Positions 6,655 to 46,526 of a stretch of 64,000 nt of DNA are shown one piece after another; positions within the stretch are counted from its first letter, which is position 1, and each line of letters begins with the position of its first letter. A program made the translations under genes and the position numbers. This DNA is from Xanthomonas hortorum (GTDB taxonomy: Bacteria > Pseudomonadota > Gammaproteobacteria > Xanthomonadales > Xanthomonadaceae), in the NCBI RefSeq assembly GCF_024339125.1, contig NZ_CP101417.1, forward strand, positions 3,111,001 to 3,175,000. Direction: 5' to 3'. The notes below the pieces were generated by a model. It saw only the letters and a list, made by a program, of their open reading frames with translations. It was not told where the DNA came from and did no database searches.

Positions 6655-6762
6655 GGTGCTTGCGCGCGTGCCGGCATGGGACCTTACGCGGCATGGATGC
6701 CGCGTAAGAGCCTACACGGACGTACTTGCGGCGTGTCCCATGCCGGTACGCGTGCAAGTGCC
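6655..6762 (+). repeat. Structured intergenic repeat, class A, copy A1
   Basis: Outer arms of about 28 bases (6655-6682 and 6735-6762) are imperfect reverse complements containing GCCGGCATGGGAC and GTCCCATGCCGG. An inner hairpin at 6684-6707 has arms TTACGCGGCAT and ATGCCGCGTAA. Between inner hairpin and right arm lies a conserved unpaired stretch beginning GAGCCTACA. It lies between the convergent acvB and mprF genes. Confidence 0.9.
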
Positions 6763-6821
6763 CGCAGCAAACCGAAGCATTCCCACGAAACCAGCTGACT
6801 TCGTCTGCTTGTTCGGCTTGC

Positions 6822-6928
6822 GCGCGGTGCCGCATCCAGTGTCGGGACACGCCGCAAGTACGTCCATGTAGGCTCGGTGGCGGCATCCATGCCGCCACAC
6901 GGTCCCGCCCCTGGACGCGGCACCGCGC
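6822..6928 (-). repeat. Structured intergenic repeat, class B, copy B1
   Basis: Same architecture as class A but in the opposite orientation and with different stems. The inner hairpin is GTGGCGGCAT/ATGCCGCCAC type. The outer arms read GCGGTGCCGCATCCAG on one side and CTGGACGCGGCACCGC on the other. The single-stranded stretch starting GAGCCTACA is shared with class A. Confidence 0.88.
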
Positions 6929-7116
6929 TGCCACTTTTCGCGACTGCTGATCGGCAAGCAATGACTTTATGTAGTCGAATGCCTGCGGATTCCGCAGTCG
7001 ATACTCGACGCTGCCTTGTCTATCGCTTTGTCATGACTTCGCCAGCGAAGGCCACGCTTCAAGGCATGATCAATCAACCAGGCGACGCTGTTCCTTCAGC
7101 GACCGAAACGACTGAA

Positions 7117-7224
7117 GGTGCTTGCGCGCGTGCCGGCATGGGACCTTACGCGGCATGGATGCCGCGTAAGAGCCTACACGGACGTACTCGCGGCGTGTCC
7201 CATGCCGGCACGCGCGCAAGCGCC
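7117..7224 (+). repeat. Structured intergenic repeat, class A, copy A2
   Basis: Near-identical to copy A1, including the locus-specific outer arms with GTGCCGGCATGGGAC and its complement. The inner hairpin is at 7146-7169. It is preceded by a further small hairpin, CCTTCAG (7093-7099) with CTGAAGG. The array A1-B1-A2 fills the 675-bp gap between acvB and mprF; nothing coding is seen there. Confidence 0.9.
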
Positions 7225-7272
7225 CCTCAGTAAACCGAGCATTTCGCACAAAGGCGCAGGCATCACGCGATC

Positions 7273-9837
7273 TTATTCCTGCCGACCAGGATCCACCGAG
7301 ATCAAGCGGGTCACATCCAGCAACGCCGCCGGCAAGTGCATGCCGCCCGGCGCGACCAGATAGCGCGGGCGCCAGGTCGGCGCGAACTTCGACTTGAAGC
7401 GGCGCAGGCCGCTGAACCCGTAGAAGCGTTCGCCGTGCCGCGCGACCAGGCTGGCGAAGCGGTTCCAGCGGCCGGCCAGGCGATGCTCGGCCATGCCCGA
7501 CAGTGGCGCCATGCCCAGCGAGAAGCGCGTGTAGCCATTGGCCTGGCCCCACAGGAACAGCTCGATAAACAGGAAGTCCATGGTGCCCTTGGGCGCCTGC
7601 GCACTGTGGCGCATCAGATCCACCGACAGCTCGCCGCCGGCCGGCGCCCACCACACGTTGGCGAAGGCCATGATCTGCCCTTCCGCCTCGGCCACCGCCA
7701 CCGGAAACCGACGCAGGTACTCCGCATCGAAGCTGCCCAACGAAAAGCCTTTCTCTTCGCCGGCTTTTTCTTCCAGCCACTGCTCGGAGACCTCGGCCAG
7801 CTGCGGCAGCACCGCCTCCACTTGTTCGGGCTGCAGCATGCGGAAGGTCAGGCCGCCGCGCTTGCCGCGGTTCCAGGCCTGGCGCAGGTCGGCACGGTCG
7901 CGGCCTTCCAGGGTGAAGCCTTCCAGCGGCACGATCGCTTCTTCGCCCAGCTTGACCAGGGTCAGGCCCATGTCGAGATAGGTCTGCCAGTATTTTTCGC
8001 CGACCTGGTAGAACACCGGGCGCAGGCCCATGTGGTCGGCCTCTTCGCGGAAACGCCACATCAATGCGCGCGCGACCTCCGGCGGGCCGACCGGGTCGCC
8101 CATCGAGATCAGCGAGCCGCCGTAGCGCTGCATCATCACAAACCCACGCCCCTGCTCATCGAGCAGAAACGCTTTGTCGCCGGTCAGCGCCAGGCAGGCC
8201 TGGGTGTCGGTGCTGATGGCCAGAATCGGTGCCAACGTCTGCAGCGTCTGCGCATCGGCGGCCGGCATCGGGCGGCGCCCGCCACGCAGCAGGCGCGCCA
8301 TGCCGAACACGATCACGCCTACGCACAGGATCAGCGCGGCGCGCAACGCACGCGGCGCATTGGCCGAGGTGGCGAACTGCCACCACAGGTCATTGCTGTA
8401 TTCGACATGGCTGTAGACGAAGAACAGCAGCCAGAACGTGGCCACCAGCACCAGGCCTAGATTGCTCAGCCAGCGCCACGACCAGGCTTCGTCCAGCAGC
8501 GCGCCCTGGCGATAGAACTCGCGGCGTGCCGCCCACAGCGCAACCGCCGCCAATGCCGCCGACAGCGAGACCGAAATATGGCTGCCGCGTAACAGAGACA
8601 GCGGCGGCAACAGCACGCACACACCCAGCGCCAGCGCCCAGGCCGCATGGCTGCGGCGTTGCAGGCCCTGGCCGATCAGCAACAACAACATGCCGCCCAG
8701 GCTGACCAGCAGATGCGAGGTTTCGATCAGCGGCAGCGGCGCCACTTCCTGGCGCGCGCGCGGGGTGGGCAAGGTGCCGTCGATCATCAGCGCCGCGCCC
8801 ACCGCAAACACTGCCAAAGCCAGAATCTGTGGCAGCCACGGGCGAAACGCCTTCCATACTGTGCGTGCGGTGCTCGCACTGGCGCGCACTGGCGCCCCCA
8901 GGCCGGAAGCCGCCGCCATTGCCACCGAGATCAGCAACGGCACGATGTAGTAGGTGACCCGGTAGGCCAGCGCCGCAGCCAGCACCGCCGCGGGAGTGAC
9001 ATGCGGCAGCAGCTTGAGCAGGCTCCACTCGAACACGCCCAGCCCGGCCGGCACGGTGGAGATCAGCCCGGCCACCACCGCCACCAGCCAGATGCCGATA
9101 AAACCGAAATAGCCGGTGCCCGGATCCGGCGGCAGCAGCACGTAGAACGCGGCCGCAGCCAGGCCCAGTTCGACCACGCTCAGCGCGGTCACGCCGAGCA
9201 CCGTGGTGCGATCGGGCAGCCAGAAGCGATGACTGCGGATGCCGAATTCGCGGCCCTGTCTGCCGACCAATACCAGCATCGCCACATAGCCGACCAGCAG
9301 GGCGATGCCGGCAATGCGGATGCCTTCGGCAGCGATCGGCAGGGCGCGTGCGGCCGCTTCAGGTTCCAGCATCAAGGCCAGGCCAAGCAGCACCCATGCG
9401 CCGAAGATGAAGCCCAGCGTGCTCATCAGCACCACCTGGCCGATCTCGGCCAGGGTCAGCCCCACGCTGCCATAACCGCGCAAGCGCACCGCGCCGCCGG
9501 TCAGTGCAGCAAAGCCCAATGTCTGCCCGACCGCGTGCGCCATGAATGCAGTGATGCCCACCCGCGCCGGGTGCAAGCGCTTGCCGGTGCGCTTGAGCCC
9601 CACCCAGTCAAAGCCCACCAGGCAGGCGTAGCTGCTCAGGCCCAGCAGCAGGGTGAGCGCGATCTGGCCGACCCCCAGTTCACGGAACGCCTGGCGGATC
9701 TGCCGATAGCCGTGGTCAGTGAACTGAGAGGACAGCGCGTGCAGCGCCATCGCCAGGATCGCCAGGCTGATGATCACCGGCAGGGCGCGACGCCAACCGC
9801 TGGCGGGCGTTTCGGAAGACACGGGGGTATCCGTCAT
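7273..9837 (-). CDS. mprF: Bifunctional lysylphosphatidylglycerol flippase/synthetase
   Basis: An 854-residue inner-membrane protein. The N-terminal 500 residues or so are a multi-helix flippase domain (LISTVPAGLGVFEWSLLKLL is typical). The C-terminal part from about residue 540 is the DUF2156 aminoacyl-transferase domain with TGDKAFLLDE, YQVGEKYW and RFSLGMAPLSGM. MprF moves lysine (or alanine) from aminoacyl-tRNA to phosphatidylglycerol and flips the product outward, lowering surface charge and giving resistance to cationic peptides. The start is MTDTPVSSETP at 9837; the frame is open further upstream to 10020 but that extension is not hydrophobic and lacks a ribosome site. It faces acvB across a repeat array. 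Confidence 0.92.
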   Translation of the reverse strand: MTDTPVSSETPASGWRRALPVIISLAILAMALHALSSQFTDHGYRQIRQAFRELGVGQIALTLLLGLSSYACLVGFDWVGLKRTGKRLHPARVGITAFMAHAVGQTLGFAALTGGAVRLRGYGSVGLTLAEIGQVVLMSTLGFIFGAWVLLGLALMLEPEAAARALPIAAEGIRIAGIALLVGYVAMLVLVGRQGREFGIRSHRFWLPDRTTVLGVTALSVVELGLAAAAFYVLLPPDPGTGYFGFIGIWLVAVVAGLISTVPAGLGVFEWSLLKLLPHVTPAAVLAAALAYRVTYYIVPLLISVAMAAASGLGAPVRASASTARTVWKAFRPWLPQILALAVFAVGAALMIDGTLPTPRARQEVAPLPLIETSHLLVSLGGMLLLLIGQGLQRRSHAAWALALGVCVLLPPLSLLRGSHISVSLSAALAAVALWAARREFYRQGALLDEAWSWRWLSNLGLVLVATFWLLFFVYSHVEYSNDLWWQFATSANAPRALRAALILCVGVIVFGMARLLRGGRRPMPAADAQTLQTLAPILAISTDTQACLALTGDKAFLLDEQGRGFVMMQRYGGSLISMGDPVGPPEVARALMWRFREEADHMGLRPVFYQVGEKYWQTYLDMGLTLVKLGEEAIVPLEGFTLEGRDRADLRQAWNRGKRGGLTFRMLQPEQVEAVLPQLAEVSEQWLEEKAGEEKGFSLGSFDAEYLRRFPVAVAEAEGQIMAFANVWWAPAGGELSVDLMRHSAQAPKGTMDFLFIELFLWGQANGYTRFSLGMAPLSGMAEHRLAGRWNRFASLVARHGERFYGFSGLRRFKSKFAPTWRPRYLVAPGGMHLPAALLDVTRLISVDPGRQE

Positions 9838-10095
9838 GAGGGCAACGGGATCTGCTTGAGGGAAAGAGGGTGCATGCACGGAATGTGCCGCGCGCGGAGG
9901 GTCTGCATGGGCCGGTCGATTGAAGTGCGTGCAGCGTGATCGCGTCAATGCAGAAATGAAGTGAACGCTAAGGTTCGGCCATACCGATATTTGTCCGCGC
10001 ATGGCGGCCGCGCGCATCATAGGGCAAAGCCACGCGTACGTGCCGTCGGGGAGCCGGATGGATCAGATGACAGTTGCAGGGGAGACAGGCTGTTG

Positions 10096-10803
10096 ATGGG
10101 GAATGCATGCGATCACCGCGCTGCTGCGCAAACCCGGCAGCCATGTCCGCCACGCTGGAGCGGTTACGCCGGAGCGATCACCGCAGCGACGGGCGTGGCC
10201 TTCATCGCTCTGGTGGTGTTGCTGCAATGGCTGCGCGGCGATCTGGACTGGATCGATGCACAACTGAGTGCCTACCTGCACGGCGCTTACGGCTTGCTGC
10301 TGCGCACCGCCTATTGCCTGCTAGCCGCAGCCATGGTGTGGCTGGCGCTGGGCCTGTACGCGGCGCTGGCGCCGGTCGTATGCAGTCGCACGGTGGTGGG
10401 CTTGTTCTGCATGGCGGCAGTAGGCCTGAGCGCGGTGGCGATCGGCGACAGCTGGATGCCGGTGCTCGCACCCGACGCGGCGACGATGGTGCATCTGTTG
10501 TCGGCCAATACCGCATTTCTGTGCGTAATTGCAGCGATATTGCTGCAATCCTGGTATTTCCGTCGTGATCGTTGGTGGCGCCAGCATTTCGTACCGGCAT
10601 TCGGTCTGGGCTTGGTGGCATTTGCGCTGTTGTTGTTCCACGTCAGCGTGACCAGCGCGCCGCCGGGTATCAGCCAGAAGAGTGCCATCGTGGCGATCGT
10701 GTCCTGGATGGTGCTGGTTGGGCGGTGGCTAGCGCGCGACGTACATGCGCAGGCTGCATGTTTGCCGCATTCGCGGGACAATGCCCGGGTCAATCAACCG
10801 TAG
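10096..10803 (+). CDS. DUF998 family membrane protein
   Basis: A 235-residue protein with about six hydrophobic segments, beginning at MGNACDHRAAA with GGGGAG eleven bases upstream. The order of helices, the HLLSANTAFL segment and a short polar C-terminus fit the DUF998 family of uncharacterised integral membrane proteins. It diverges from mprF and ends 10 bp before the ridA-type gene, so the two are likely one transcript. No function can be assigned; the mprF neighbour suggests an envelope role but this is inference. Confidence 0.75.
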   Translation: MGNACDHRAAAQTRQPCPPRWSGYAGAITAATGVAFIALVVLLQWLRGDLDWIDAQLSAYLHGAYGLLLRTAYCLLAAAMVWLALGLYAALAPVVCSRTVVGLFCMAAVGLSAVAIGDSWMPVLAPDAATMVHLLSANTAFLCVIAAILLQSWYFRRDRWWRQHFVPAFGLGLVAFALLLFHVSVTSAPPGISQKSAIVAIVSWMVLVGRWLARDVHAQAACLPHSRDNARVNQP

Positions 10804-10813
10804 GAAGTCTGAA

Positions 10814-11161
10814 ATGGTGCAGCGATTCGATACAGGTCCGCGGATGTCCGAAATGGCCGTGCATGGCGGCGTGTGCTATCTGGCCGGCCAGATTGCCGAG
10901 GACACCAGCGAAGACATCACCGGGCAGACCCGCCAGGTGCTGGGCGAAATCGACAAATTGCTGGCGCAGGCGGCCAGCGACAAGACCAAGATCCTGCGTG
11001 CGGAAATCTTCCTGGCCGACATCGCCGATTTCGACGGCATGAACAAGGCCTGGGACGAGTGGGTGCCGCATGGCTTTACGCCCGCACGTGCCACTGTCGA
11101 AGCCAAACTGGCGCGGCCGGAGTGGAAGGTGGAAATCGTGATCACCGCTGCGGCGGGCTGA
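10814..11161 (+). CDS. RidA/YjgF family protein
   Basis: A 115-residue cytoplasmic protein of the Rid family. It has GVCYLAGQIAEDTSEDITGQ, then ILRAEIFLADIADFDGMN, and the C-terminal block ARATVEAKLARPEWKVEI. RidA proteins are trimers that hydrolyse reactive enamine/imine intermediates from PLP enzymes. In RidA proper an Arg in a TRxxV context near the C-terminus binds the carboxylate; here the block is ARATVEAKL, which keeps the Arg. It resembles the Rid subgroup common next to metabolic genes rather than canonical RidA. AGGAAG precedes the ATG. A strong terminator follows at 11336. Confidence 0.85.
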   Translation: MVQRFDTGPRMSEMAVHGGVCYLAGQIAEDTSEDITGQTRQVLGEIDKLLAQAASDKTKILRAEIFLADIADFDGMNKAWDEWVPHGFTPARATVEAKLARPEWKVEIVITAAAG

Positions 11162-11335
11162 TCGCCTGGCGGCGCGCGGATCGCCGAGCGATCGCGCGCT
11201 GCGACCCTATGATCTGCAACATTGCAGCCGCCTCAGCAGCCGGTTACGAAAACCTGCTTGCGTGCCGAGCTGGCATTGCCAGCCAACGCGCTGATCTGCG
11301 TGCCAGCGTTGTTGAAGAGCCGAGTGGAAGCCGAC

Positions 11336-11370
11336 ACATCGCGGCCATCTGCTGGCCGCGATGTCGTTTT
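11336..11370 (+). terminator. Intrinsic terminator downstream of the ridA-type gene
   Basis: Perfect 12-base arms ACATCGCGGCCA and TGGCCGCGATGT enclose TCTGC, followed by CGTTTT. It lies about 175 bp after the ridA-type stop and 36 bp before the convergent CFA-like gene ends, with the T-run on the plus strand. Confidence 0.7.
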
Positions 11371-11405
11371 GACGCGCGCTCCTGCGTCGATCAGCCTTGC
11401 TTCGA

Positions 11406-12476
11406 TCAACGCTTGACGAAGCGATAGTGCGCCACGCCCCATTCGCGGCCCTGGTCGTAACCGAACAGCTCCGCGCAGGCCAGCCAGAACATCCGCCAGC
11501 GTTGCCACCAGCGCTGCGCATCCTCGCCGTAAGTCTGCTTCAGCAGCGGCATGATCTGCTCGCGGTGGCGGTCCTGATTCTCCAGCCAGGCATTGGCGGT
11601 TTTTTCGTAATGCTCGCCCGACAGCACCCAACGCTGTTCGATCACGACATCCTGCTGGAAATGCAGCAAGGTATCGGTGGCCGGCATCAGCCCGCCGGTG
11701 AAAAAGTGCCGCCCCATCCAGTTATCTTCGCCGGCCACTTCGAACGGGTAGGCCAGATCGCGATGACAGAAGACATGCACGAACAGCTTGCCGCCCGGCG
11801 CCAGCCAGCTGCCGACGCGCGCCAGCAGCTCGCGGTAATTGCGCATGTGCTCGAACATTTCCACCGACACCACACGGTCGAAATTGCCCGGCGGCAGCGC
11901 CAGCGCATTGACGTCGGCAGTGATGACCTGCACGTTGCTCAAGCCGCGTACGCGACACTGTTCTAGAATATGCGCGCGCTGCGGGCGTGAGTTGGACACC
12001 GCGGTGATGGTGGCGCCGGGATAGCGTTCGGCCATCCACAGGGTCAGCGAGCCCCAGCCGCAGCCCAGTTCCAGAATGCGCTGGCCGTCGGCCAGCTCGG
12101 CACGCTCGCCGTACAGCGCCAGCATGCGTTCTTCGGCGGCATCCAGATCCGGCGTGGTCGCGTCCCAATAGCAGCTGCTGTATTTGAGCCGGCGCCCCAG
12201 GCACAGGGTGAAGAACTGCGGCGGCAACTCGTAGTGCTGGCGATTGGCGGCATCGGTTTCGATCGCGATCGCGCTGGCACGCAGGCTGTCGATAAACGCG
12301 CGTTGACGTTCGCCGCTGGCATCGGCGCCGTCGCCGCGCTCATCGCGCAGGCGCTGTGCGCACAGTCGGCGGATGCCGTAGCGCAGCGCTGCATCGGGCA
12401 GCAGGCCGGATTCGGCCAGCCGGGTGGCGAAGGATTCTTCGGGCAGCGAGGAGGGCGGGATGGTAACGGTGGACAT
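11406..12476 (-). CDS. CFA-synthase-like SAM-dependent methyltransferase
   Basis: A 356-residue cytoplasmic methyltransferase of the cyclopropane-fatty-acid synthase superfamily. SAM motif I is ILELGCGWG (134-142). HYELPPQFF (81-89) replaces the HYDLGN-type segment of true CFA synthases, and the lipid-binding N-terminal domain is shorter. VSVEMFEHMRNY and GGKLFVHVF follow. It is the last gene of a seven-gene operon that already holds a canonical CFA synthase, so it probably acts on a different or already modified acyl chain. Related enzymes methylate unsaturated fatty acids. The upstream gene ends 17 bp before its start. Confidence 0.85.
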   Translation of the reverse strand: MSTVTIPPSSLPEESFATRLAESGLLPDAALRYGIRRLCAQRLRDERGDGADASGERQRAFIDSLRASAIAIETDAANRQHYELPPQFFTLCLGRRLKYSSCYWDATTPDLDAAEERMLALYGERAELADGQRILELGCGWGSLTLWMAERYPGATITAVSNSRPQRAHILEQCRVRGLSNVQVITADVNALALPPGNFDRVVSVEMFEHMRNYRELLARVGSWLAPGGKLFVHVFCHRDLAYPFEVAGEDNWMGRHFFTGGLMPATDTLLHFQQDVVIEQRWVLSGEHYEKTANAWLENQDRHREQIMPLLKQTYGEDAQRWWQRWRMFWLACAELFGYDQGREWGVAHYRFVKR

Positions 12477-12493
12477 ACGACTCTCCAGGCGAC

Positions 12494-13276
12494 TCAGGAC
12501 GAAGGGGGGAACGGAAAAAATGCGCTGGTGCTGCGTTGGTACTGCGCATAGTCCTCACCACGCGAGCGCAGCGCCTGCTGTTCGGTGTAGGGAATGCCGG
12601 TGAAGCGATACAGAAACACGAACATCACCACCGGCCCAAGCGCGCACAGCGCGACCGGCCACGGCCCGGCACCGACAGCCAGCGCCAGATAGGCAAACCA
12701 ATGCACGAACTCGAAGAAATAATTGGGATGGCGCGAATACCGCCACAGCCCGCTGCGGCAGGTGACGCCGCGATTGGCCGGATTGGCCTTGTGCGCAGAT
12801 AGTTGCTGGTCCGCCAGCGCTTCACCGCCGACCGCGATCAACCACACGGCGATTGCCAGGCTGCTCCACATGCTCCAGGCCGGATTCGGGTTGCTGGCAG
12901 CGGCCAGAAACGGCACCGAAAACAGCACCACCACCACCGCTTGCGCCAGGAAAAAGCCCAGGAATTTGCGCTGGTCGCCATTCCAGTGTTCGCGCAGTGC
13001 GCGATAGCGGCCATCTTCGTGCGGGTCGCCGAACACGCGCACGCCCAGATGCAGCGCCAGGCGCGCACCCCACACGCCGCCGAGCACGGCCACCAGCACG
13101 CGCGGTAGCAGCGCGCCATCGGACATCCACGCGCAATACGGTGCAGCGACGGCCAGGCACGCGGCCCACAGCACATCCACCGGGCCGGCATTGCCGCTGC
13201 GGCGCTGCCACAGCCAGCCGATCACCATCACCACGCTCGCAAACACGCCTACATGCAGCAGTGGCCAGACAGTCAT
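12494..13276 (-). CDS. DUF1295 family membrane protein (steroid 5-alpha-reductase-like)
   Basis: A 260-residue integral membrane protein of the DUF1295 family, related to steroid 5-alpha reductases and isoprenylcysteine methyltransferases. It carries SGLWRYSRHPNYFFEFVHW and GIPYTEQQALRSRGEDYAQYQ, the family's C-terminal NADPH- or SAM-site region. In this operon it probably reduces or modifies an acyl or lipid double bond in the membrane; the exact substrate is unknown. It overlaps the upstream DUF2878 stop by four bases (ATGA), showing translational coupling. Confidence 0.88.
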   Translation of the reverse strand: MTVWPLLHVGVFASVVMVIGWLWQRRSGNAGPVDVLWAACLAVAAPYCAWMSDGALLPRVLVAVLGGVWGARLALHLGVRVFGDPHEDGRYRALREHWNGDQRKFLGFFLAQAVVVVLFSVPFLAAASNPNPAWSMWSSLAIAVWLIAVGGEALADQQLSAHKANPANRGVTCRSGLWRYSRHPNYFFEFVHWFAYLALAVGAGPWPVALCALGPVVMFVFLYRFTGIPYTEQQALRSRGEDYAQYQRSTSAFFPFPPSS

Positions 13277-13818
13277 TGCAGTTCTCCAGTGATGTGCTCA
13301 GGCGATGGTCGCGCCAGGCGGCGTGCATACAGCGACAACACGCCGCAGGCCACGCCCCAGCCGATGCCGACCGCAACCACTGCGTGCAGCTGTGGCGGCT
13401 GGAATTCCACTGCCTGCCAGCTGCGCTGCGCCAACCAATACGAGAACGGCCCGAAGATGGCGCCCAGCAGTACCGCCAGCCATGGACGTTGCATCACCGT
13501 GGCCAAGGAATGATTGAGGGTGAGCGCAAAGCCCAGCCACAACGCCAGAATCCACGGCGGTGCCAACGGCGTGCCCGGCCACGGTGCGGCGTAACGCACC
13601 CAACCGCCTGCAGCCAGCGTGGTATCCAGCAGCAAGCCCAGCGACAACGCGGCGATCAACAATTGCAGATCGCCCGGCGCGCGCCGCGACGGCCACAGCT
13701 GATACAGCGCAAATAGCGCCAACACCAGCAGTGTCGGCCAGATGCGCGCCTGCGCGGCGGCGCTGACCGCCACCACCCATAGCACCTGCAAACCGAGATA
13801 GTTGCCGAGCTGCTTCAT
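13273..13818 (-). CDS. DUF2878 family membrane protein
   Basis: A 181-residue protein with about five or six hydrophobic helices, starting MKQLGNYLGLQVLW. The segment LHAVVAVGIGWGVACG and the overall size fit DUF2878, a family I know mainly from clusters with CFA synthase and DUF1295 genes. It overlaps both neighbours by four bases (CFA synthase upstream, DUF1295 downstream). No reaction is known. The gene context makes a membrane-lipid role likely. Confidence 0.8.
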   Translation of the reverse strand: MKQLGNYLGLQVLWVVAVSAAAQARIWPTLLVLALFALYQLWPSRRAPGDLQLLIAALSLGLLLDTTLAAGGWVRYAAPWPGTPLAPPWILALWLGFALTLNHSLATVMQRPWLAVLLGAIFGPFSYWLAQRSWQAVEFQPPQLHAVVAVGIGWGVACGVLSLYARRLARPSPEHITGELQ

Positions 13819-17235: not shown

Positions 17236-18230
<995 letters not shown>

Positions 18231-18444: not shown

Positions 18445-18453
18445 ATAGCCGGG

Positions 18454-38069: not shown

Positions 38070-38073
38070 GGCG

Positions 38074-38748: not shown

Positions 38749-38903
38749 CCGCGCATTGTAGGCACTCGGCCGGGTCCGGTGCAGACCCGAGGCAGGGCTT
38801 GTTCGCCCGGGAGACGGCAAGTGCGCATATGCGTTATGGCACGCGTGAGCCGGTGCCTGCCGCTCTAAGATGGCGCAGTTCATCCACGGAAGGTTGCAAA
38901 CGC

Positions 38904-40271
38904 ATGCTCGCCAGATTCCTCAAGTCGGCCCTGCTGGGGCTCTGCATTCTGGTTGCCCTACTGGTGGCCCTGTACGCGATCTCCGCACGCTGGCCGATTC
39001 CTGAGGCACAACGCCAGGCGTTGGCGCAACTGCGTCAACCGCCGCTGCCGCTGCGTGGGCCCAACATGTTTGTCGCGCTATGGTCGTTGCCGTACGCGGT
39101 GCCGGATGCACAGCGTGAGGCGCTGCTTGCGCAGGACGTGCAGCGGTTCGAACGCCTGCCTGCCGGCATGCCGTTGCAAAGCGCCGCCACACGCTATCCA
39201 CGCCGGCCGAATTGGCCTGCGTCGGCCCCGGAACTGTGTACGCGCTATGACGGGTGCCTGGACCGCGTGCGTCAACGGCAGCAAGCCTATGCCGACGCGC
39301 TAGCCGCGCATAGGCCGCAGTTGATCAAGTCGCGCGATCTTGCGGGCTATGCAGATTACCGCAGCCCGTTCCCGCCCAGCGCCACGGCCCCGCTACCGAC
39401 ACTGCCGCAGTTCAAGCTGTCGATGACCAGCAACGCGCTGGACTTCGTCCAAGGACGCACCGAGCAGGCGCTGGCGGGCGTCTGCGCCGATGCACGGATT
39501 GCGCGGGTACTGCTGCGCAGCGGCGACAACCTCATCATGCCGATGGTTGGCGCGGCGATGCTGCGTACCAACGCGCATCTGTTTGCTGAAATGCTGTCCG
39601 AGCTGCCTGCAAAGCATCCATTACCCGCGCAATGCCTCGCTGCATTCGCGCCGCTTGCGGTCGATGAGGTTTCGCTGTGCAATGCCTTGCACGGCGAATC
39701 GCGAATGGTGCTGTCGATGCTCGAGACAGAGGTTCGCAAGGACCCGGCAACCGACCTGTCCTGGGACGAACGGTTGTCGCTGCGTCTGCTGGACCACAAG
39801 CGTACCCGTGCGCTGATGGCGCCGACCTATACCTGGGCGTGTAGCGCGCCGGTGCGGACCTTGCTGGCGCAGGATCAAGCGGTGCCGCAGGCAATGATTC
39901 CGGTGCCGGACACTATGTCGATGGGCTGTATTGCCAATGCGGTTGGGTGTGTGTTGGCGGGTATGGCAAGCCCTGACTATGCGCATTATCAGCACAAGCT
40001 CCAGGACGCCGCGGCTGCATTGCGCGCGCTGTCGGCAGTGCTGTGGTTACGCGATCATCCCAATGATGCGCAGACACTTGAGCAGCGTCTTGCCAGCTTG
40101 CCGCCAGCGCTGCGCGGACAAGCGCGACCACTCCAGCCCGGTGCCGATGGCCGGAGCGTGCAGCTGCGTCAATACGCCAGGCGCGAGGAGAATGTAGTGG
40201 AAGATCAGTGGCCGCTGGCCGGCAGCAAGCGGCCGCCTGAGCCGGCGGCGATATCGATCAAACGGAGTTAG
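38904..40271 (+). CDS. Membrane-anchored protein of unknown function
   Basis: A 455-residue protein starting MLARFLKSALLGLCILVALL, one N-terminal hydrophobic helix, then a large soluble domain presumably in the periplasm. Conserved-looking blocks include LCTRYDGCLDRV, PQLIKSRDLAGYADYRSPFP and MGCIANAVGCVLAGMASPDY. Several Cys (in ELCTRYDGCL, CNAL, WACSAP, MGCIANAVGC) could form disulfides. I do not recognise a domain. It may be a Xanthomonas-type lineage protein. It diverges from the DUF502 gene; the start has an AAGG-like site upstream. Confidence 0.75.
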   Translation: MLARFLKSALLGLCILVALLVALYAISARWPIPEAQRQALAQLRQPPLPLRGPNMFVALWSLPYAVPDAQREALLAQDVQRFERLPAGMPLQSAATRYPRRPNWPASAPELCTRYDGCLDRVRQRQQAYADALAAHRPQLIKSRDLAGYADYRSPFPPSATAPLPTLPQFKLSMTSNALDFVQGRTEQALAGVCADARIARVLLRSGDNLIMPMVGAAMLRTNAHLFAEMLSELPAKHPLPAQCLAAFAPLAVDEVSLCNALHGESRMVLSMLETEVRKDPATDLSWDERLSLRLLDHKRTRALMAPTYTWACSAPVRTLLAQDQAVPQAMIPVPDTMSMGCIANAVGCVLAGMASPDYAHYQHKLQDAAAALRALSAVLWLRDHPNDAQTLEQRLASLPPALRGQARPLQPGADGRSVQLRQYARREENVVEDQWPLAGSKRPPEPAAISIKRS

Positions 40272-40309
40272 TGGCGTTTAGATGCAGTCAAAAACTGAGT
40301 CGGTCGAGT

Positions 40310-40414
40310 GCGCGGTGCCCTCACCGCTCGCGGGACACGCCGTGAATCCGTCCGTGGAGGCTCGGTGGCGGCATCCATGCCGCCACACGGTCCCGCAAGC
40401 GGTGAGGACACCGC
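40310..40414 (-). repeat. Structured intergenic repeat, class B, copy B2
   Basis: Outer arms contain CTCACCGC and its complement GCGGTGAG, the inner hairpin is the GTGGCGGCAT/ATGCCGCCAC form. The shared single-stranded stretch is diverged here (GAGCCTCCACGGACGGATTC instead of the usual form). It is 136 bp before copy A3 in the opposite orientation. Confidence 0.88.
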
Positions 40415-40550
40415 ACCAGAAAGTTTTTAGGTTGCTTTGTTGAAAGCCTGCCCATTGTTTTGACTGCATTGAGAAGATGATCGGACACGCCGTTATCTAA
40501 GCAACGCACGTCATGCATTGCTTGCACCATGCATACCGACACTCTCGACT

Positions 40551-40658
40551 GGTCCTTGCCCGCCTACCGTCGCGGGACCTTACGCGGCATGGATGCCGCG
40601 TAAGAGCCTACACGGACGTACTTGCGGCGTGTCCCGCGACGGTAGGCGGGCAAGGGCC
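40551..40658 (+). repeat. Structured intergenic repeat, class A, copy A3
   Basis: The 28-base outer arms pair with only one mismatch, a possible G-U pair. They contain CCTACC and GGTAGG where copy A4 has CCCACC and GGTGGG. The inner hairpin is TTACGCGGCAT/ATGCCGCGTAA. Confidence 0.9.
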
Positions 40659-40775
40659 GTGCAGCCAAGCCGAAGATCGTCGGCTCTACAAGCGATCTAT
40701 CCGCAATGTCCAACTACTCAAAGCCAATCAATCTTTCGATTCGGTGCGTCGTCGTAGGTGCAGTCAAATGCTTAG

Positions 40776-41933
40776 GGAAGGTCTGAATAACGCGGCCTGA
40801 GAGCGCGGAATGTCGCGTCGTTGCGGAGAGTCGCGTTTGGATCTTCGGAGTTTGGCCATTTCTGGCGCTTTCCGTGGGAATTCCCCGGGTTACAGGCGCA
40901 CGCTCCCCATAGCAGGAAGTAACTGCTTTCGCTTCATCCACAGGTTTGACAGCGCAAACAACGTCAGCACCTGCGCGGTGTTCTTGGCCAGGCCGCGATA
41001 GCGGACCTTGGTGTAACCGAATTGGCGCTTGATCACCCGGAATGGATGCTCCACCTTCGCGCGCACGCTGGCCTTGAAGTGTTCCCAACGCTGTTCCCGA
41101 GCACGCTCGCGGTTGTTGCCGATGGCTTGCGTCGTCGAGGGCCTGGCGGCGATGAAGAATGCTGCCTTGCAGGTCTGCAGTTCGTCGCGTTTGTCCGCGC
41201 CGGTGTAGCCGCTGTCGCCGAACACGCTGTCTTCGTTGCCATGCAGCAACGTGTGCGTCACCGTGACGTCGGCGACATTAGCCGCTGTGCAATGGACGTG
41301 GTGCACCAACCCGGAAAACTCATCCACGCCGATGTGCGCCTTCATCCCGAAATACCACTGATTGCCCTTCCTGGTCTGATGCATTTCAGGGTCGCGCGCG
41401 TGATCGGCATTCTTGGTCGAACTGGGCGCAGCGATCAGTGTCGCATCGACGATCGTGCCCGACCGCAGGCTCTGACCCTTGCGCGCCAGATGCGCATTGA
41501 CCGCGTCCAGCATCCGCGCGGCAAGGCCATGGGTCTCCAGCAGGCGCCGAAAGTTCAAAATCGTGGTCTCGTCCGGAACGTTGTCCAAGCCACCGAGCTG
41601 GGCAAACCTCCGCAAGATCGGGATCTCGTGCAACGCTTCTTCCATCGCCGGATCGCTCAACGCATACCACTGCTGCAGCAAATGAATCCGCAACATCGTC
41701 GCCAGTGCGTATGGCTGTCGACCAGGGCGCCCCGACACCGGATAGTGCGGTTCGATCAGACCGAGCAAGTGCTGCCACGGAACGACCTGCTCCATCTCGG
41801 CCAGGAAGATCTCCCGGCGGGTCTGCTTACGCTTGCCCAGGCCTTCAGCGTCACCGAACGTCAGTTGCATGGATCACTCCTCAACATGAGGCGGGTAGTG
41901 TCGCGTATCTATGGTGCGTTGTTCAGAGGTTCC
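40776..41933 (-). mobile_element. IS5-family insertion sequence, complete, 1158 bp
   Basis: The ends are imperfect inverted repeats: GGAAGGTCTGAATAACGC at the left and, read inward from the right, GGAACCTCTGAACAACGC. Both sides are flanked by TTAG (40772-40775 and 41934-41937), a 4-bp target duplication of the YTAR type used by the IS5 group. The single transposase gene on the minus strand is intact, so the copy may be active and recent. It sits between two copies of a composite B-A repeat unit. Confidence 0.93.
40890..41870 (-). CDS. IS5-family transposase
   Basis: A 326-residue DDE transposase of the IS5 group. The N-terminal domain has GRPGRQPYALATMLRIHLLQ, then VPDETTILNFRRLLETHGLA. Catalytic residues fit IVDATLIAAPSS (first Asp), VFGDSGYTGAD (second Asp) and RAKVEHPFRVIKRQFG, the YREK-type box with Glu. 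It is full length and has no internal stop. Its start lies 63 bp inside the right terminal repeat of the element. Confidence 0.95.
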   Translation of the reverse strand: MQLTFGDAEGLGKRKQTRREIFLAEMEQVVPWQHLLGLIEPHYPVSGRPGRQPYALATMLRIHLLQQWYALSDPAMEEALHEIPILRRFAQLGGLDNVPDETTILNFRRLLETHGLAARMLDAVNAHLARKGQSLRSGTIVDATLIAAPSSTKNADHARDPEMHQTRKGNQWYFGMKAHIGVDEFSGLVHHVHCTAANVADVTVTHTLLHGNEDSVFGDSGYTGADKRDELQTCKAAFFIAARPSTTQAIGNNRERAREQRWEHFKASVRAKVEHPFRVIKRQFGYTKVRYRGLAKNTAQVLTLFALSNLWMKRKQLLPAMGSVRL

Positions 41934-41960
41934 TTAGGTCAAAAGCCTGGTTAGTCGAGC

Positions 41961-42067
41961 GCGCGGTGCCCTCACCGCTCGCGGGACACGCCGCAAGTAC
42001 GTCCATGTAGGCTCGGTGGCGGCATCCATGCCGCCACACGGTCCCGCAAGCGGTGAGGACACCGCGC
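41961..42067 (-). repeat. Structured intergenic repeat, class B, copy B3
   Basis: It resembles copy B2 in outer arms (CTCACCGC with GCGGTGAG) but keeps the usual conserved single-stranded stretch. The adjacent bases GTCGAGCGCGC before it match those before B2, so the shared unit extends beyond the hairpins. Confidence 0.88.
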
Positions 42068-42208
42068 CATAAAGTTGGTCGGTGGTTGGATGAAAAGCGA
42101 GCCATCTCGTTGCATTAGCTTGCTGTTGCGGTTCGCACCCACATGAGAGCTGGCGAATCAGAAGCGCGTCATGCACTGCTTGCACCCTGCACACCAACCA
42201 TCTCGATT

Positions 42209-42316
42209 GGTCCTTGCCCGCCCACCGTTGCGGGACCTTACGCGGCATGGATGCCGCGTAAGAGCCTACACGGACGTACTTGCGGCGTGTCCCGCGATGG
42301 TGGGCGGGCAAGGGCC
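42209..42316 (+). repeat. Structured intergenic repeat, class A, copy A4
   Basis: Outer arms carry CCCACC and GGTGGG, the compensated form of the CCTACC/GGTAGG pair in A3. The spacer to B3 (142 bp) contains the same TGCACTGCTTGCACC-like stretch as between B2 and A3. The remaining 115 bases to the porin stop hold nothing else recognised. Confidence 0.9.
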
Positions 42317-42431
42317 CTGCAGCCAAGCCGCAGCCAAGCCACAGATCAGCCGCTATGCAACCGACACATTCATCGCGTCCGATCCTAGTGCGCAGATCAG
42401 TGCAGAACAACGATCGGACCGTACCGCTTAC

Positions 42432-44006
42432 TCAGAACCGGAAGTTCAACCACCCCATCACGAAGGTCGAATCGCCGTAACCGGCCTTGGTCAGCGCGGG
42501 GCCGGCGATCAGGTGTTCGGCGCGGAAGGTCACCGACCAGTTCGGGTCGATGTTCCAGGTCGCGTTGATGCGCGGCATGGTGCCGATGCGCCGCTCGCCG
42601 GTGCTCTGCGTACGTGCATAGGCGCGCGCCTGGTTGTTGTAGATCGCATCGCTGGTGGTCTGGCGCCACAAAGTTTCCCACTCCAGGTTCACGGTGAGCT
42701 TGGGCGTGGGCGAGAAGATCAGCGTTGGCGCGGCAGTGACCAGGTTGACCGGGCCGAAGAACGTCGCCCAGCTGAAATAGATCGTGTTGCCGTAGAGAAA
42801 ATTGTTGTTGCGCAAGGTGCCGGTGCCGGAGGTACCGCCGCCACCGGATGCGATTTCGCTATGAAACCCCACGCGTGGCTTCCAGCCGCTGTCGCTCAAC
42901 GTCCAGGCATTGGAGGTGCTCGCCATGTACGCGCGCAGGTCGCGTCCGCCAAAACTGCCGCGCTGCACGGTCACGAACGAATCGGTGCGCAGCTTGCCCA
43001 CATTGCCCCACAGGCGCAGGCCGTAGTAATTGCGGTTTTCTTCGGCGGTCTGCCGGCCCCACACCTGATTGTCGTTGCGGAACTGATAGAAGAACGGCTC
43101 CAGATACATCGGCTTGGCGGTCGGCAGGCGATATCCGCCAACCACGCCGCGGAAATGCCGCGAGCGGTCGATGCGATCGTCGCCCAACCCTTCGGTGCCA
43201 TCCAGATTGAAGTTGAAATCGAACACGTCCACACGGGTCTTTTCGCCGATCGCCCAGGCGCGCACACCGTTGAAGGTCACGAAGATATCGGTGTTGTCGC
43301 GCAGCGCCATCAATGTGGTCGGGCCGTCGACGAACACCTGACGGCCCACACGCAGACCGGTGTCGGCGCCGCCGATGTTGCCCTTCACGTCGAAGAACAC
43401 CTGCTGCAGGATCGCGTTGTTTTCCTGGGTACCGGTCTTGGTACCTTCGTTGCGCCCATCCAGGCTGCCGTGCGCCAGTTCCGTATACAGACGGAAGTGC
43501 TCGCCGACATGGAAGTCGGCGCCGAAGAATGCACGGAACAGATACTGCTGCTGCGAATGGCTGCCCGGAATCAGGCCGGGATTGGTGATGGTGTTGCTGC
43601 GTATGCGCAGCTCGTTGCTGAGCGACACGTAGACATCGCCGGATTCGCTGAGCGGGATGTACTTGAGCGGATCGAACGGGCTCTTGCGCTTGGACGGATC
43701 TTTCAGATATGACCAGTCTTCGACCCAGCGCACCTGCCACATATTGCCGCCCTGTTTGGCACCCCAACCCTGCGCTTCGAGCGGGTAACCCTTGGATGCA
43801 GCGGGCGCTGCAGGGACAGCAGGTGCTGCAGCAGGCGCTTGCGATTTGCTGATGTCCGGCTGGGTCTGCTCGGCATTGACCGGCGCTGTCTGCGCCTGTG
43901 CAACGCTCACGCCAGGCAGCGACAACCCGATCGCAAGGCAGAGGCGCCGGGTGGTACCAAAGGAAGTGTCAGCCATGGCCGGTCGTGCCAAACGCGCAAG
44001 TCGCAT
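42432..44006 (-). CDS. Alginate-export-type outer membrane porin
   Basis: A 524-residue outer-membrane beta-barrel. The signal sequence ends near SVAQAQ and an Ala/Pro-rich linker (about 45-70) follows. The barrel repeats have alternating aromatic residues and the protein ends GWLNFRF, with a C-terminal Phe for BAM recognition. Segments such as FRLYTELAHGSLDGRN and LRVGRQVFVDGPTTLMALRD are typical of the alginate export (AlgE) domain family. No alginate or other exopolysaccharide genes are adjacent, so the substrate is open. The start at 44006 has an AGGGCG-like site; ATG at 43976 is the alternative. Confidence 0.82.
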   Translation of the reverse strand: MRLARLARPAMADTSFGTTRRLCLAIGLSLPGVSVAQAQTAPVNAEQTQPDISKSQAPAAAPAVPAAPAASKGYPLEAQGWGAKQGGNMWQVRWVEDWSYLKDPSKRKSPFDPLKYIPLSESGDVYVSLSNELRIRSNTITNPGLIPGSHSQQQYLFRAFFGADFHVGEHFRLYTELAHGSLDGRNEGTKTGTQENNAILQQVFFDVKGNIGGADTGLRVGRQVFVDGPTTLMALRDNTDIFVTFNGVRAWAIGEKTRVDVFDFNFNLDGTEGLGDDRIDRSRHFRGVVGGYRLPTAKPMYLEPFFYQFRNDNQVWGRQTAEENRNYYGLRLWGNVGKLRTDSFVTVQRGSFGGRDLRAYMASTSNAWTLSDSGWKPRVGFHSEIASGGGGTSGTGTLRNNNFLYGNTIYFSWATFFGPVNLVTAAPTLIFSPTPKLTVNLEWETLWRQTTSDAIYNNQARAYARTQSTGERRIGTMPRINATWNIDPNWSVTFRAEHLIAGPALTKAGYGDSTFVMGWLNFRF

Positions 44007-44133
44007 CGTGTCGCCCTATCTAAAAGTGAGTCGCCTGAGCACGGTGTATCGGCTCAGTGACCAAGGACTGTAGTGGAGCCATGCCGTAAAGGCAGTAACC
44101 CAATGGTTCTAAGTACATGAGCCGGAATTTGTC

Positions 44134-44256
44134 ATTGGGGATTGAGGATTCGCACCAGCAGGCGTGTCGATTGGTGTGCCAATTCTTCTTCAGTTCGCTT
44201 GAGTCGATGCACGGAAATTCTCGGCCGGCATGCTTTTGCGAATCCCGAATCCCGAC
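44134..44256. repeat. Inverted pair of short GGGATT-type repeats upstream of the padR gene
   Basis: The left arm (44134-44153) reads TTGGGGATTGAGGATTCGC and the right arm (44238-44256) reads GCGAATCCCGAATCCCGAC. They can pair over about 18 bases. The remaining gene-free bases 44007-44341 hold the two divergent promoters; a candidate PadR half-site pair ATAC/GTAT is separated by 14 bases near 44295-44316. Confidence 0.65.
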
Positions 44257-44341
44257 TGACATAACCCGGCTCCATGACTAACAGCACATCCGCTATACCT
44301 AACTTCTCACTAGTATCGTCTTCGACCTAGCGGAGATGGCG

Positions 44342-44704
44342 ATGAGCGAGCCGGATGCCTACCTACGAAAATTTCAGAAAGAGCTGAGCGCCGGCACCGT
44401 GTCGCTGGCGTTGCTGGCAGTGCTGGGGCAGGCCGACGAGCCATTGTATGGCTACCTGATCGCCAAGCGCCTGGAGCGATTGGACGGCGTGCTGAGCGGC
44501 AAGCAGAGCGCGCTGTATCCGGTGCTGCGCAATCTGGAAGCGGCAGGGCTGCTGCAGAGCCAGGTCGAGCCCTCTGCGTCCGGTCCGCCGCGGCGCTACT
44601 ACCGCATCACCCAAACAGGGCGTGATTGCCTACGCGACTGGACCGCCGCCTGGCGCGCCACCCGCGATTCCGTTGATTCAGTGCTGGAGGGGACTCACCC
44701 ATGA
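44342..44704 (+). CDS. PadR-family transcriptional regulator
   Basis: A 120-residue winged-helix repressor. AGTVSLALLAVLGQADEPLY opens the family domain, LSGKQSALYPVLRNLEAAGL is the recognition helix region and GPPRRYYRITQTGRDCL forms the wing. The start is ATG at 44342, with GGAG six bases upstream; the ATG at 44336 would be too close to that site. It overlaps the next gene by four bases (ATGA). PadR proteins paired with HAAS-domain membrane proteins usually act as one signalling unit. Confidence 0.92.
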   Translation: MSEPDAYLRKFQKELSAGTVSLALLAVLGQADEPLYGYLIAKRLERLDGVLSGKQSALYPVLRNLEAAGLLQSQVEPSASGPPRRYYRITQTGRDCLRDWTAAWRATRDSVDSVLEGTHP

Positions 44705-45612
44705 CGACCATTGCGCAGACACGTCCGTTGCCGACCACCATTCCCGATTACCTGACCCAGTTGCGCCAGGCCCTGGCCGGCGCGGACCCGGCGATGATCC
44801 AGGACGCACTCTACGACGCCGAGGAATACCTGCGAGCCGAACTGGCCGAGCACGCTGACAAGAGCGAGGCGGAAGTGATCGCGGCGGTGGCCGGTAGCTA
44901 CGGCGCGCCGGATGAAGTGGCCGAGATCTACCGCGAGACGGAAGTGACGGTGACGCGCGCACTGCGTCCGCCGCTACCGCCCAAACGCAGTTCCTGGGTG
45001 GGCAGGTTCTTCGGCGTCGCGGCCGACCCGCGCACGTACGGCGCATTGTTCTACATGCTGCTGTCGCTGGTCACCGGCGTGTTCTATTTCACCTGGGTGG
45101 TGACCGGCGCGAGTCTGTCGGCGGGCCTGTTGATCCTGATCATCGGTGTGCCGCTGCTGGTGCTGTTTTTCGGGTCGGTGCGTGTGCTGTCGCTGGTGGA
45201 AGGCCGCGTGGTGGAGACGCTGCTCGGTGTGCGCATGCCGCGTCGTCCCGCCCATCCCGGGCCGCAAGGTGGCTGGCTGCAACGCATCGGCGCGATGTTC
45301 ACCGATGCGCGCACCTGGAGCACGATGCTGTACTTCCTGCTGATGCTGCCGTTGGGCATCATTTACTTCAGCGTGTTCACCACCTTGTTGTCGTTGTCGC
45401 TGGGCTTGGCCGCTTCACCGTTGGCGCTGTTGTTCGACAACACGGCGGTGCTGACCTGGGACGGCGTGGATGTCACCAGCCCCTGGCTGACGCTGCCGTC
45501 GTTCGTCGTGGGCGTGCTGCTGCTGTTCGTCACGCTGCATCTGGCACGCGCCTTCGGCAAGCTGCATGGCATGTTCGCCAAGCACTTGCTGGTCAAAAGT
45601 GGCGAAAGTTGA
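44701..45612 (+). CDS. HAAS/sensor-domain membrane protein
   Basis: A 303-residue protein. The N-terminal helical region (about 15-75, YLTQLRQALAGADPAMIQDA and DAEEYLRAELAEH) is a HAAS/DUF1700-like signalling domain. Two four-residue-separated clusters of membrane helices follow (about 115-170 and 215-285), interrupted by the repeated pattern DPRTYGALFYMLL and DARTWSTMLYFLL, which shows an internal duplication of a putative sensor domain. It overlaps padR by four bases, so it probably controls or reports to PadR from the membrane. The stimulus is unknown. Confidence 0.85.
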   Translation: MTTIAQTRPLPTTIPDYLTQLRQALAGADPAMIQDALYDAEEYLRAELAEHADKSEAEVIAAVAGSYGAPDEVAEIYRETEVTVTRALRPPLPPKRSSWVGRFFGVAADPRTYGALFYMLLSLVTGVFYFTWVVTGASLSAGLLILIIGVPLLVLFFGSVRVLSLVEGRVVETLLGVRMPRRPAHPGPQGGWLQRIGAMFTDARTWSTMLYFLLMLPLGIIYFSVFTTLLSLSLGLAASPLALLFDNTAVLTWDGVDVTSPWLTLPSFVVGVLLLFVTLHLARAFGKLHGMFAKHLLVKSGES

Positions 45613-45786
45613 GTGCACTGCGTGATTGCGTGTTGTGCGACACGCGGCTGCGATCGCTGCAGTACCGCGTGGTCTGCAGTGCAGAACCTGAAAGACGCTA
45701 CGACTTGAAATCCCGGTTGTCGTGGAAGTGATTGGACAGTGCGGATAGATCAGTTGCAGAGCGGGTGATCTGTGGCTTGGCTGTAG

Positions 45787-45894
45787 GGTCCTTGCCCGCC
45801 CACCATCGCGGGACACGCCGCAAGTACGTCCGTGTAGGCTCTTACGCGGCATCCATGCCGCGTAAGGTCCCGCGACGGTAAGCGGGCAAGGACC
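45787..45894 (-). repeat. Structured intergenic repeat, class A, copy A5
   Basis: Full class A element in reverse orientation. Its outer arms are close to those of A4 but one pair (CCCACC opposite GGTAAG) is partly uncompensated. It opens a 1-kb gene-free region between convergent genes that holds four elements. Confidence 0.9.
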
Positions 45895-46031
45895 AATCAA
45901 GATGGTCGGTATGCATGGTTGCAAGCAAGGCATGACATGCGCTGTCTGGATAACTGCGCGTCCGATCAGCTTCGCAACGCAACGAGATCAACAGGCAGGC
46001 TTTCAACAAAGCAGCCGACTAACTTTCTGGT

Positions 46032-46134
46032 GCGGTGTCCTCGCCGCTTGCGGGACCGTGTGGCGGCATGGATGCCGCCACCGAGCCTACATGGACGTAC
46101 TTGCGGCGTGTCCCGCGAGCGGCGAGGGCACCGC
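46032..46134 (+). repeat. Structured intergenic repeat, class B, copy B4
   Basis: Outer arms contain CTCGCCGC and GCGGCGAG, the compensated form of CTCACCGC/GCGGTGAG in B2 and B3. The inner hairpin is GTGGCGGCAT/ATGCCGCCAC. The 137-bp spacer to A5 is the reverse complement of the kind of spacer between B2 and A3. Confidence 0.9.
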
Positions 46135-46259
46135 GCGCTCGACTAACTAGCTTGTGACTGTATCTAATGACGCTACGACTCGAAATCTCGGTTGTCTTGA
46201 ACGCATGGAGAGTGCGGATAGATCAGTTGCAGAGCGGTTGATCTTCCACTTGGCTGCAG

Positions 46260-46367
46260 GGCCCTTGCCCGCTCACCATCGCGGGACACGCCGCAAGTAC
46301 TTCCGTGTAGGCTCTTATGCGGCATCCATGCCGCATAAGGTCCCGCGACGGTGAGCGGACAAGGACC
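46260..46367 (-). repeat. Structured intergenic repeat, class A, copy A6
   Basis: The inner hairpin is TTATGCGGCAT/ATGCCGCATAA, compensated at one pair compared with all other class A copies. The outer arms have CTCACC with GGTGAG, a third compensated variant of this position. Confidence 0.9.
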
Positions 46368-46423
46368 AGTCGAGATGGTCGGTGTGCAGGGTCTTCAATA
46401 AAACAGCCGGCAAACTGTCCGGT

Positions 46424-46526
46424 GCGGTGTCCTCGCCGATTGCGGGACCGTGTGGCGGCATGGATGCCGCCACCGAGCCTACACGGACGTACTTGCGGCG
46501 TGTCCCGCGGGCGGCGAGGGCACCGC
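46424..46526 (+). repeat. Structured intergenic repeat, class B, copy B5
   Basis: Forward class B element with arms GCGGTGTCCTCGCC and GGCGAGGGCACCGC. A5-B4 and A6-B5 form a tandem duplication of the composite unit; flanking bases such as GTGCGGATAGATCAGTTGC precede both. Confidence 0.9.

Follow-up and report, generated by a model that had tools for sequence, protein, structure and literature searches.

YPAL, the Yersinia palindromic sequence, was reportedly described by De Gregorio in 2006. Table 1b of PMC2759123 gives the Y. pestis repeat, 168 nt long, under its other name RU-2, and its sequence contains one GGA-loop hairpin reading GCC UAC AUGGAU GUA UUUAC GGC, termed P3 here, and another, P2, with the loop AAGGAU. 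We analyzed eleven repeats, of two variants A and B, in a 64,000-nucleotide stretch of Xanthomonas hortorum (RefSeq assembly GCF_024339125.1, contig NZ_CP101417.1, positions 3,111,001 to 3,175,000 of the forward strand), hereafter the window. The initial annotation of this stretch knew no named family for these repeats, but their core equals that of YPAL/RU-2, namely the GGA-loop hairpin P2, the string GAGCCUACANGGAYGUA, and UUUACGGCGUC. Because RU-2 holds the same core, and because the Rfam family Ysr224 (RF02770), a Yersinia small RNA (sRNA), weakly matches copies in other genera when these are read on the complementary strand, the window elements almost certainly belong, judging by sequence, to the YPAL/RU-2 family in a wide sense. 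Our preferred reading, to which we give a probability of roughly 0.6, is that they are a miniature mobile element whose transcript from the GGA-bearing strand would bind a dimer of the global regulator CsrA/RsmA.

The likeness to YPAL/RU-2 also includes a long hairpin built of internal inverted repeats, and variable presence and absence between relatives. The size may be similar as well. Around 60 A and 40 B copies in the source genome the conserved span was ~150–165 bp (read by eye, with soft ends), near the 168 nt of RU-2 and the 167–168 bp expected of YPAL. Window copies differ from RU-2 in having other arms and other P2 and P3 stems, in occurring as two variants in inverted pairs at set spacings, and in residing in hosts far from Yersinia. 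Neither CsrA nor RsmA is named in the YPAL papers PMC3733652 and PMC2267715, CsrA is absent from PMC5193452, and a count of terms gave neither in PMC2759123 and PMC2229807; the original 2006 description is not covered by this statement. YPAL is expected to leave target-site duplications of 3–26 bp, and is described as targeting sites at or beside dyad symmetry (PMC2229807); element-free sites were found for the repeats studied here, with no clean junction pair among them. Ysr224 corresponds to the strand opposite the GGA strand, where it spans both P3 and P2, and reached up to 38 bits (best E 3.2e-5, gathering score 70) against copies from other genera. The Rfam search that the initial annotation had called for returned nothing at the gathering threshold in the window, where Ysr224 gave only three weak matches (E 0.97–4.9, the best with 19.4 of 70 bits).

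Two other described systems share features with these repeats. Like CsrB/RsmZ-type CsrA sponges and the TwoAYGGAY RNA (RF01731), they present a pair of similar hairpin loops with GGA. CsrB-type RNAs, unlike dispersed mobile repeats, each come from a single sRNA gene. TwoAYGGAY has been proposed as CsrA-binding (PMC4333381), and between window positions 40000 and 46700 RF01731 had no match with E ≤5. Repetitive extragenic palindromic (REP) elements with RAYT transposases are likewise dispersed intergenic palindromes of alternating orientation. However, REPs are termed species- or strain-specific in PMC2817692, whereas the core here is common to many genera, and the GT(A/G)G head expected directly before a palindrome is absent: the antisense strand has GTAG, then further bases (GCTC), before P2. 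The RAYT-linked REPs of Xanthomonas read GTAGGAGCGC... (PMC2817692, Table 1), and GTAGGAGCG was absent from the window.

The fold of the family was modeled from an alignment of 37 copies, 28 from other genomes and nine from the source genome. These remained after 23 of 60 candidates were dropped (L039, the second L054 copy, and near-duplicates); some core loci, including L032 and L033 with degraded P2, lay outside the 60. The model is a three-way junction on the GGA strand with an outer stem P1, a hairpin P2, and a hairpin P3 composed of GCN/NGC, a 5-nt bulge, and UAC/GUA. In the reference copy, the third A element (40551–40658, plus strand), the modeled inner part of the P1 5' arm at 40564–40578 pairs with the 3' arm at 40631–40645, and the arms continue outward to about 40552 and 40657. 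P2 occupies 40580–40603 with the loop AUGGAU at 40589–40594, and P3, GCC-UAC-ACGGAC-GUA-CUUGC-GGC, occupies 40606–40628 with its ANGGAY loop at 40612–40617 and the bulge at 40621–40625.

Comparative evidence for this junction was far above both controls. Of all pair cells in the alignment, 86.3% were paired, as opposed to 60.9% after shuffling and 35–46% when partners were slid; the covariation score was 0.647 vs 0.184 for shuffled alignments (reached by 0 of 500) and 0.126–0.154 for slid partners. Double-sided changes occurred at 27 of the 30 pairs across copies from many genera, which upholds the earlier proposal that the fold is kept and not the stem sequence. The changes on which that proposal was based were all visible by eye: CCTACC/GGTAGG, CCCACC/GGTGGG, and CTCACC/GGTGAG in the outer arms of A, CTCACCGC/GCGGTGAG and CTCGCCGC/GCGGCGAG in those of B, and TTACGC/GCGTAA vs TTATGC/GCATAA in the inner stem. 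What had been taken for a conserved single-stranded stretch holds a further helix, P3, with compensatory changes. The stretch does not open with GAGCCTACA in every copy; that at 40310 has GAGCCTCCA instead. The upper stem of P3 was paired in 37/37 copies as UAC/GUA, UCC/GGA, or CCC/GGG around a constant loop, and alignment pair 48/66 was CG in 29 copies, AU in two, GC, UA, and UG in one each, and unpaired in three. RNAalifold returned the same junction with no structure supplied, and two window copies had folding z-scores of -10.7 and -5.3.

The two hairpins bear a close resemblance to known CsrA ligands. Systematic evolution of ligands by exponential enrichment (SELEX) gave CsrA the consensus RUACARGGAUGU, in which ACA and GGA never varied, and most ligands paired AC with GU to enclose a loop of six bases; the RsmE loop is ANGGAN, and one CsrA dimer bridges sites 10–63 nt apart, best above 18 (all PMC7652899). 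The P3 hairpin of the reference copy fits the SELEX core ACA-N-GGA-N-GU. Across the alignment both loops contained GGA in 37/37 copies, with A-N-GGA in P2 of 33 and in P3 of all 37. P2 read CANGGANG in 28/37, a motif also present in P3 of every copy, while P3 read ACANGGANGT in 33/37 and ACANGGANGU in 33/37. The GGAs of P2 and P3 were separated by 20 nt in 27/37 copies and by 19–21 nt in 36/37. The element thus carries two ANGGAN-type GGA hairpin loops at bridging distance, as expected of a CsrA/RsmA-binding RNA. Both loops fit the CsrA/RsmA consensus at the level of sequence, and we consider it probable that the RNA would bind CsrA/RsmA in vitro. RsmU, an RNA of X. campestris derived from a 3' untranslated region (3'UTR), binds RsmA, and mutation of all four predicted GGAs did not eliminate that binding (PMC7694677); RsmU thus offers both a precedent within the genus and a caution.

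Since the aligned rows had been chosen by a P3 pattern, P2 was tested separately with a pattern fixing only P3 and its 3' side. By automatic pick, 82 of 93 assessable copies (of 94) had GGA in the P2 loop (ANGGA in 74, AGGA in four, GGA in four), and by eye six of the remaining 11 were a mis-picked GGA hairpin and five were not. In a control unmatched for stem length, hairpins of six or more pairs from random windows had a GGA loop in 48/499 cases. Constancy of the P3 loop was counted with anchors outside the loop, skipping as non-elements 34 and 102 anchor matches with more than five mismatches in the source genome and Methylotuvimicrobium buryatense 5G, respectively. The loop letters A, G, G, A had no changes in 104 source-genome copies, where other fixed positions had 0 to 19, and 0, 1, 3, and 0 changes in 103 M. 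buryatense copies, where others had 2 to 11; copies within a genome are related, so that these events are non-independent. In one Halopseudomonas copy (L295, upstream of the match at 913–937) the P2 loop was TCCC, as if the hairpin were flipped relative to P3.

The direction of decay in P1 points to the strand that folds. When a G-C pair decays, a given strand shows either G.U or A.C, and P1 read on the GGA strand gave G.U:A.C ratios of 51:4 in the source genome (46 distinct arms), 59:15 in M. buryatense (49 distinct arms), 76:9 in loci from GTDB genomes (75 arms), and 49:5 in loci from the class and phylum genome samples (53 arms). These counts follow removal of 54/100, 65/114, 19/94, and 19/72 copies, respectively, by an arm filter or as duplicates. 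With one element per locus the ratio was 70:9 in 68 loci (p 8e-13), some of which share a genome or genus, and over all stems of the 28 non-source rows of the alignment it was 35:15. Arms paired at 12 or more of 18 positions in 79/92 copies, as opposed to 1/89 for arms shifted 60 nt downstream. No mutation bias matching the wobbles was found in the source genome, either in flanks (p 0.28 and 0.68) or in arms (p 0.40 and 1.0), in a test without 7/60 A and 3/40 B copies owing to arm type or proximity to a block end. The excess of G.U over A.C therefore identifies the GGA strand as the one that folds, and selection very probably acts on it in folded form. The initial annotation had left selection on structure and hairpin-driven copying between arms side by side; the asymmetry favors selection, acting on one folded strand. 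We infer, as the simplest reading, that this strand folds as RNA. Such a wobble-asymmetry test needs nothing but sequence to tell the folded strand of a palindromic repeat from its complement, and could be used on other repeats.

The family is abundant in the source genome and widely scattered beyond it. The single 5.44-Mb contig contained ~273 places of GAGCCTACANGGACGTA at ≤2 mismatches, with none for the reversed control. The source-genome copies analyzed came from blocks totaling 1,264 kb, many of them picked for known elements, so that they give no density; 33/133 pattern matches there were dropped for lack of an A/B inner hairpin (by eye mostly chance matches, with some degraded copies). 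A strand bias suggested by the listed places was discarded, as the list is incomplete and omits a minus-strand copy at 1231005. The core at ≤1 mismatch was present in 24/274 genomes of the class Gammaproteobacteria (source included) and 23/222 genera, with the highest copy number, 443, in M. buryatense 5G. The covariance model was positive in 37/398 genomes of the phylum, a set whose class makeup is not given, and all of the positives were the source genome or members of the same family or class. The 80 of 116 GTDB stretches listed included Xanthomonas, Stenotrophomonas, Rheinheimera, Idiomarina, Halopseudomonas, Marinobacter, Microbulbifer, M. buryatense 5G, Methylomonas, Yersinia similis, Ectothiorhodospira, and further taxa; in a few cases the title said no more than 'Proteobacteria'. 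Among the matches listed, ten Xanthomonas contigs had the A/B inner hairpin in 16/18 core matches and the same arm types in 17/18. The division into A and B stands for Xanthomonas-type genomes and is local to them; arm and stem families differ in other genera, each with its own.

Plasmids carry members of the family, as a search with the RU-2 core found 15 plasmid records and 5/5426 E. coli genomes, four of the five on plasmids. A plasmid copy with 82% of the RU-2 core (e.g., NZ_CP067312.1:71650-71704) recurs in Citrobacter, Klebsiella, Escherichia, and Shigella, and 14/15 records were typed conjugative. The single record inspected was typed mobilizable, and its copy was flanked by genes for an IS26 transposase and an alcohol dehydrogenase, an unremarkable context. 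A blastn search with the third A element had no match in plasmids or phages, nor did a 49-nt core query in phages, and the core pattern was found in two stretches of viral contigs. Several M. buryatense copies (e.g., C1:27553, 97187, and 160566) were chimeric, with the 5' half swapped for a repeat with GCCATCCATGGC or a near form, as might arise by partial insertion or recombination inside the element. Tandem 98–100-bp units, consisting of GAGAGTGCAGGGACGTA and the 3' arm of A, followed an A element in the source genome (C1:3897564-3897876).

Presence and absence between close relatives indicate mobility. Across 35 genomes of the genus, the locus of the first window group was occupied by one or more copies in 20 of the 29 that were scored (two of the 20, L209 and L215, had only a motif without the ATGGAT hairpin), and that of the third group had a copy in 7 of 28. 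At another locus the source and one of nine relatives had a copy, seven had none, and a close relative (G294) had a half copy running into IS110-type sequence. That half copy (L418, plus strand up to ~1388) is broken near the antisense GTAG in the P3 region; DEDD_Tnp_IS110 and Transposase_20 are on separate open reading frames of the IS110-type sequence, and the other half of the copy is outside the locus. IS110-type elements may target the P3-region hairpin. In the source genome, the spacing of opposite-strand A/B neighbors favored values close to 176 and 257, and the sense strands pointed outward in 37 of the 47 opposite A/B couples. Gene conversion among copies is likely, since the P3 type differs at the same locus between close relatives (source L186 vs L187). 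The 1,015-bp gap between an A and a B element was inspected for an autonomous copy; its open reading frame, presumably a host-type methyltransferase, was without transposase-like features by eye, no family search having been made. Linkage to RAYT/TIRYT transposases was also considered and rejected. Y1_Tnp was sought in nine genomes (eight matched, G239 did not), in eight more (all matched), and in the source genome, and 47 of 49 fetched loci were used (L084 and L085 were left out, and some loci were shortened by contig ends). Across these 47 loci, from 17 element-bearing genomes, one cut copy at a contig end lay within 1.5 kb and no gene was flanked; the RAYT of the source genome had no repeat copy within 1.5 kb.

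Under our preferred reading, each repeat is one copy of a miniature mobile element of the YPAL/RU-2 type, whose variants A and B mostly form inverted pairs, and the GGA-strand transcript would fold into a long P1, hairpin P2, and hairpin P3 with its 5-nt bulge. P2 and P3 would present their GGA loops, mostly A-N-GGA closed by C-G, to the two faces of a CsrA/RsmA dimer, and we infer that the copies may act as scattered RsmA sites on transcripts crossing them. Since each B-A pair has its sense strands facing outward, transcription entering from one side or the other would yield one sense copy.

Several observations weigh against this reading. Energy folding of six single copies gave P1 and P2 and often missed P3, so that P3 rests on comparative evidence. 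P2 has ~9–10 pairs, and most CsrA SELEX hairpins have four or fewer (PMC7652899). The gene csrA was detected in 235/274 genomes of the class, in 22/24 with the element (the drafts G069 and G196 had no detected csrA) vs 213/250 others, so that its co-occurrence does not discriminate. The one Rfam sRNA seen for this family, Ysr224, is modeled on the strand opposite the GGA loops, and is listed as temperature-responsive in Y. pseudotuberculosis (PMC9029176), which, if that listing is right, means that the opposite strand is expressed there. Sense bias in tandem gene contexts was absent (sense in 22/46 copies in the source and 27/65 in M. buryatense), and in convergent gaps the nearer gene read the element antisense in 44/54 cases in the source, as expected from A/B pairs pointing outward, and in 17/23 single copies in M. 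buryatense (p 0.035). The lack of sense bias relative to neighboring genes argues against a simple 3'UTR role. Finally, G.T is also the mildest mismatch in DNA, and folding of single-stranded DNA would fit the wobbles too.

The element could instead be an RNA structure kept to stabilize messages or protect their 3' ends, whatever the protein involved, much as a sturdy hairpin behind genes has been put forward for Yersinia YPAL. This explanation, which we consider unlikely, would account for the placement of source-genome clusters, 26 in convergent gaps, 21 in tandem gaps, and none in divergent gaps out of 47 (background 0.20, 0.57, and 0.23), but it leaves the two constant GGA loops unexplained, and M. 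buryatense copies have no such avoidance and no sense bias, their 23 convergent, 65 tandem, and 24 divergent gaps of 112 being at background proportions. Alternatively, the fold may be a transposition signal only, with the GGA strand folding as single-stranded DNA for a transposase, of HUH type or other, its loops being landing pads and the likeness to CsrA sites coincidental. The mobile behavior, the hundreds of copies, and the lack of sense bias relative to genes agree with such a signal, and IS200/IS605-type ends also rely on strand-specific folding. We nevertheless regard it as fairly improbable, given the scarcity of copies at the Y1_Tnp loci, the roughly eightfold excess of G.U over A.C, and the match of loop, closing pair, and spacing to a known RNA-binding protein (PMC7652899). 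Arms complementary without selection, through hairpin-driven copying by template switching or gene conversion, are disfavored and highly improbable, for although gene conversion among copies is likely, such copying predicts no strand preference, yet mismatches were G.U on one strand in four sets with no mutation bias in the source genome to account for them, and it leaves the constant loops unexplained.

In the window, all of the eleven elements claimed in the initial annotation were present at their coordinates, and a covariance model recovered exactly these eleven with E values of 3e-24 to 5e-20, five of the eleven having been in its training set. The plus strand holds six copies and the minus strand the other five, with orientation alternating between A and B, and each variant has two arm types. 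The first group comprises A element 1 (6655–6762, plus, 90.4 bits), B element 1 (6822–6928, minus, 80.8 bits), and A element 2 (7117–7224, plus, 92.2 bits), which have the arm types A', B', and A', respectively. The second comprises B element 2 (40310–40417, minus, 87.2 bits), in which UCC/GGA replaces UAC/GUA in the stem of the second hairpin, A element 3 (the reference copy, 94.5 bits), B element 3 (41961–42070, minus, 86 bits), and A element 4 (42209–42316, plus, 91 bits). In the third are A element 5 (45787–45893, minus, 89.7 bits), B element 4 (46032–46139, plus, 86 bits), A element 6 (46260–46368, minus, 90.1 bits), and B element 5 (46424–46530, plus, 79.5 bits).

By our gene calling, all three groups are flanked by convergent genes: a plus-strand gene ends at 6597 and a minus-strand gene starts at 7273 around the first, with 40271 and 42432 for the second, and 45612 and 46635 for the third. 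A minus-strand DDE transposase gene (40890–41870; DDE_Tnp_1, DUF772), which we take to be IS5-like, lies between the two B-A pairs of the second group; it is probably not the mobilizer of the repeats, and the repeat array is probably older than this gene. A long palindrome flanked by A/T at 46586–46626 (GCGCCTTGATCGAGATCGATCAAGGCGC) resembles a terminator of the minus-strand gene, and was kept, with changes, in the three relatives whose spacers were compared.

A little-studied Yersinia repeat, one sRNA family in Rfam, and hundreds of copies in Xanthomonas, Stenotrophomonas, methanotrophs, and other hosts are thereby joined as a single family whose fold is defined. That the element plays a regulatory part for its host, and not merely for itself, can be put forward only tentatively. 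It is likewise doubtful, though conceivable, that the mobile family scatters paired RsmA sinks, as many as hundreds in one genome, and RsmA-dependent 3' ends over the chromosome, thereby shifting the dosage of a global regulator, with the B-A pair ensuring one sense copy. If CsrA/RsmA does bind, such elements would constitute a reservoir of binding sites for global regulators and a route for rewiring Csr networks.

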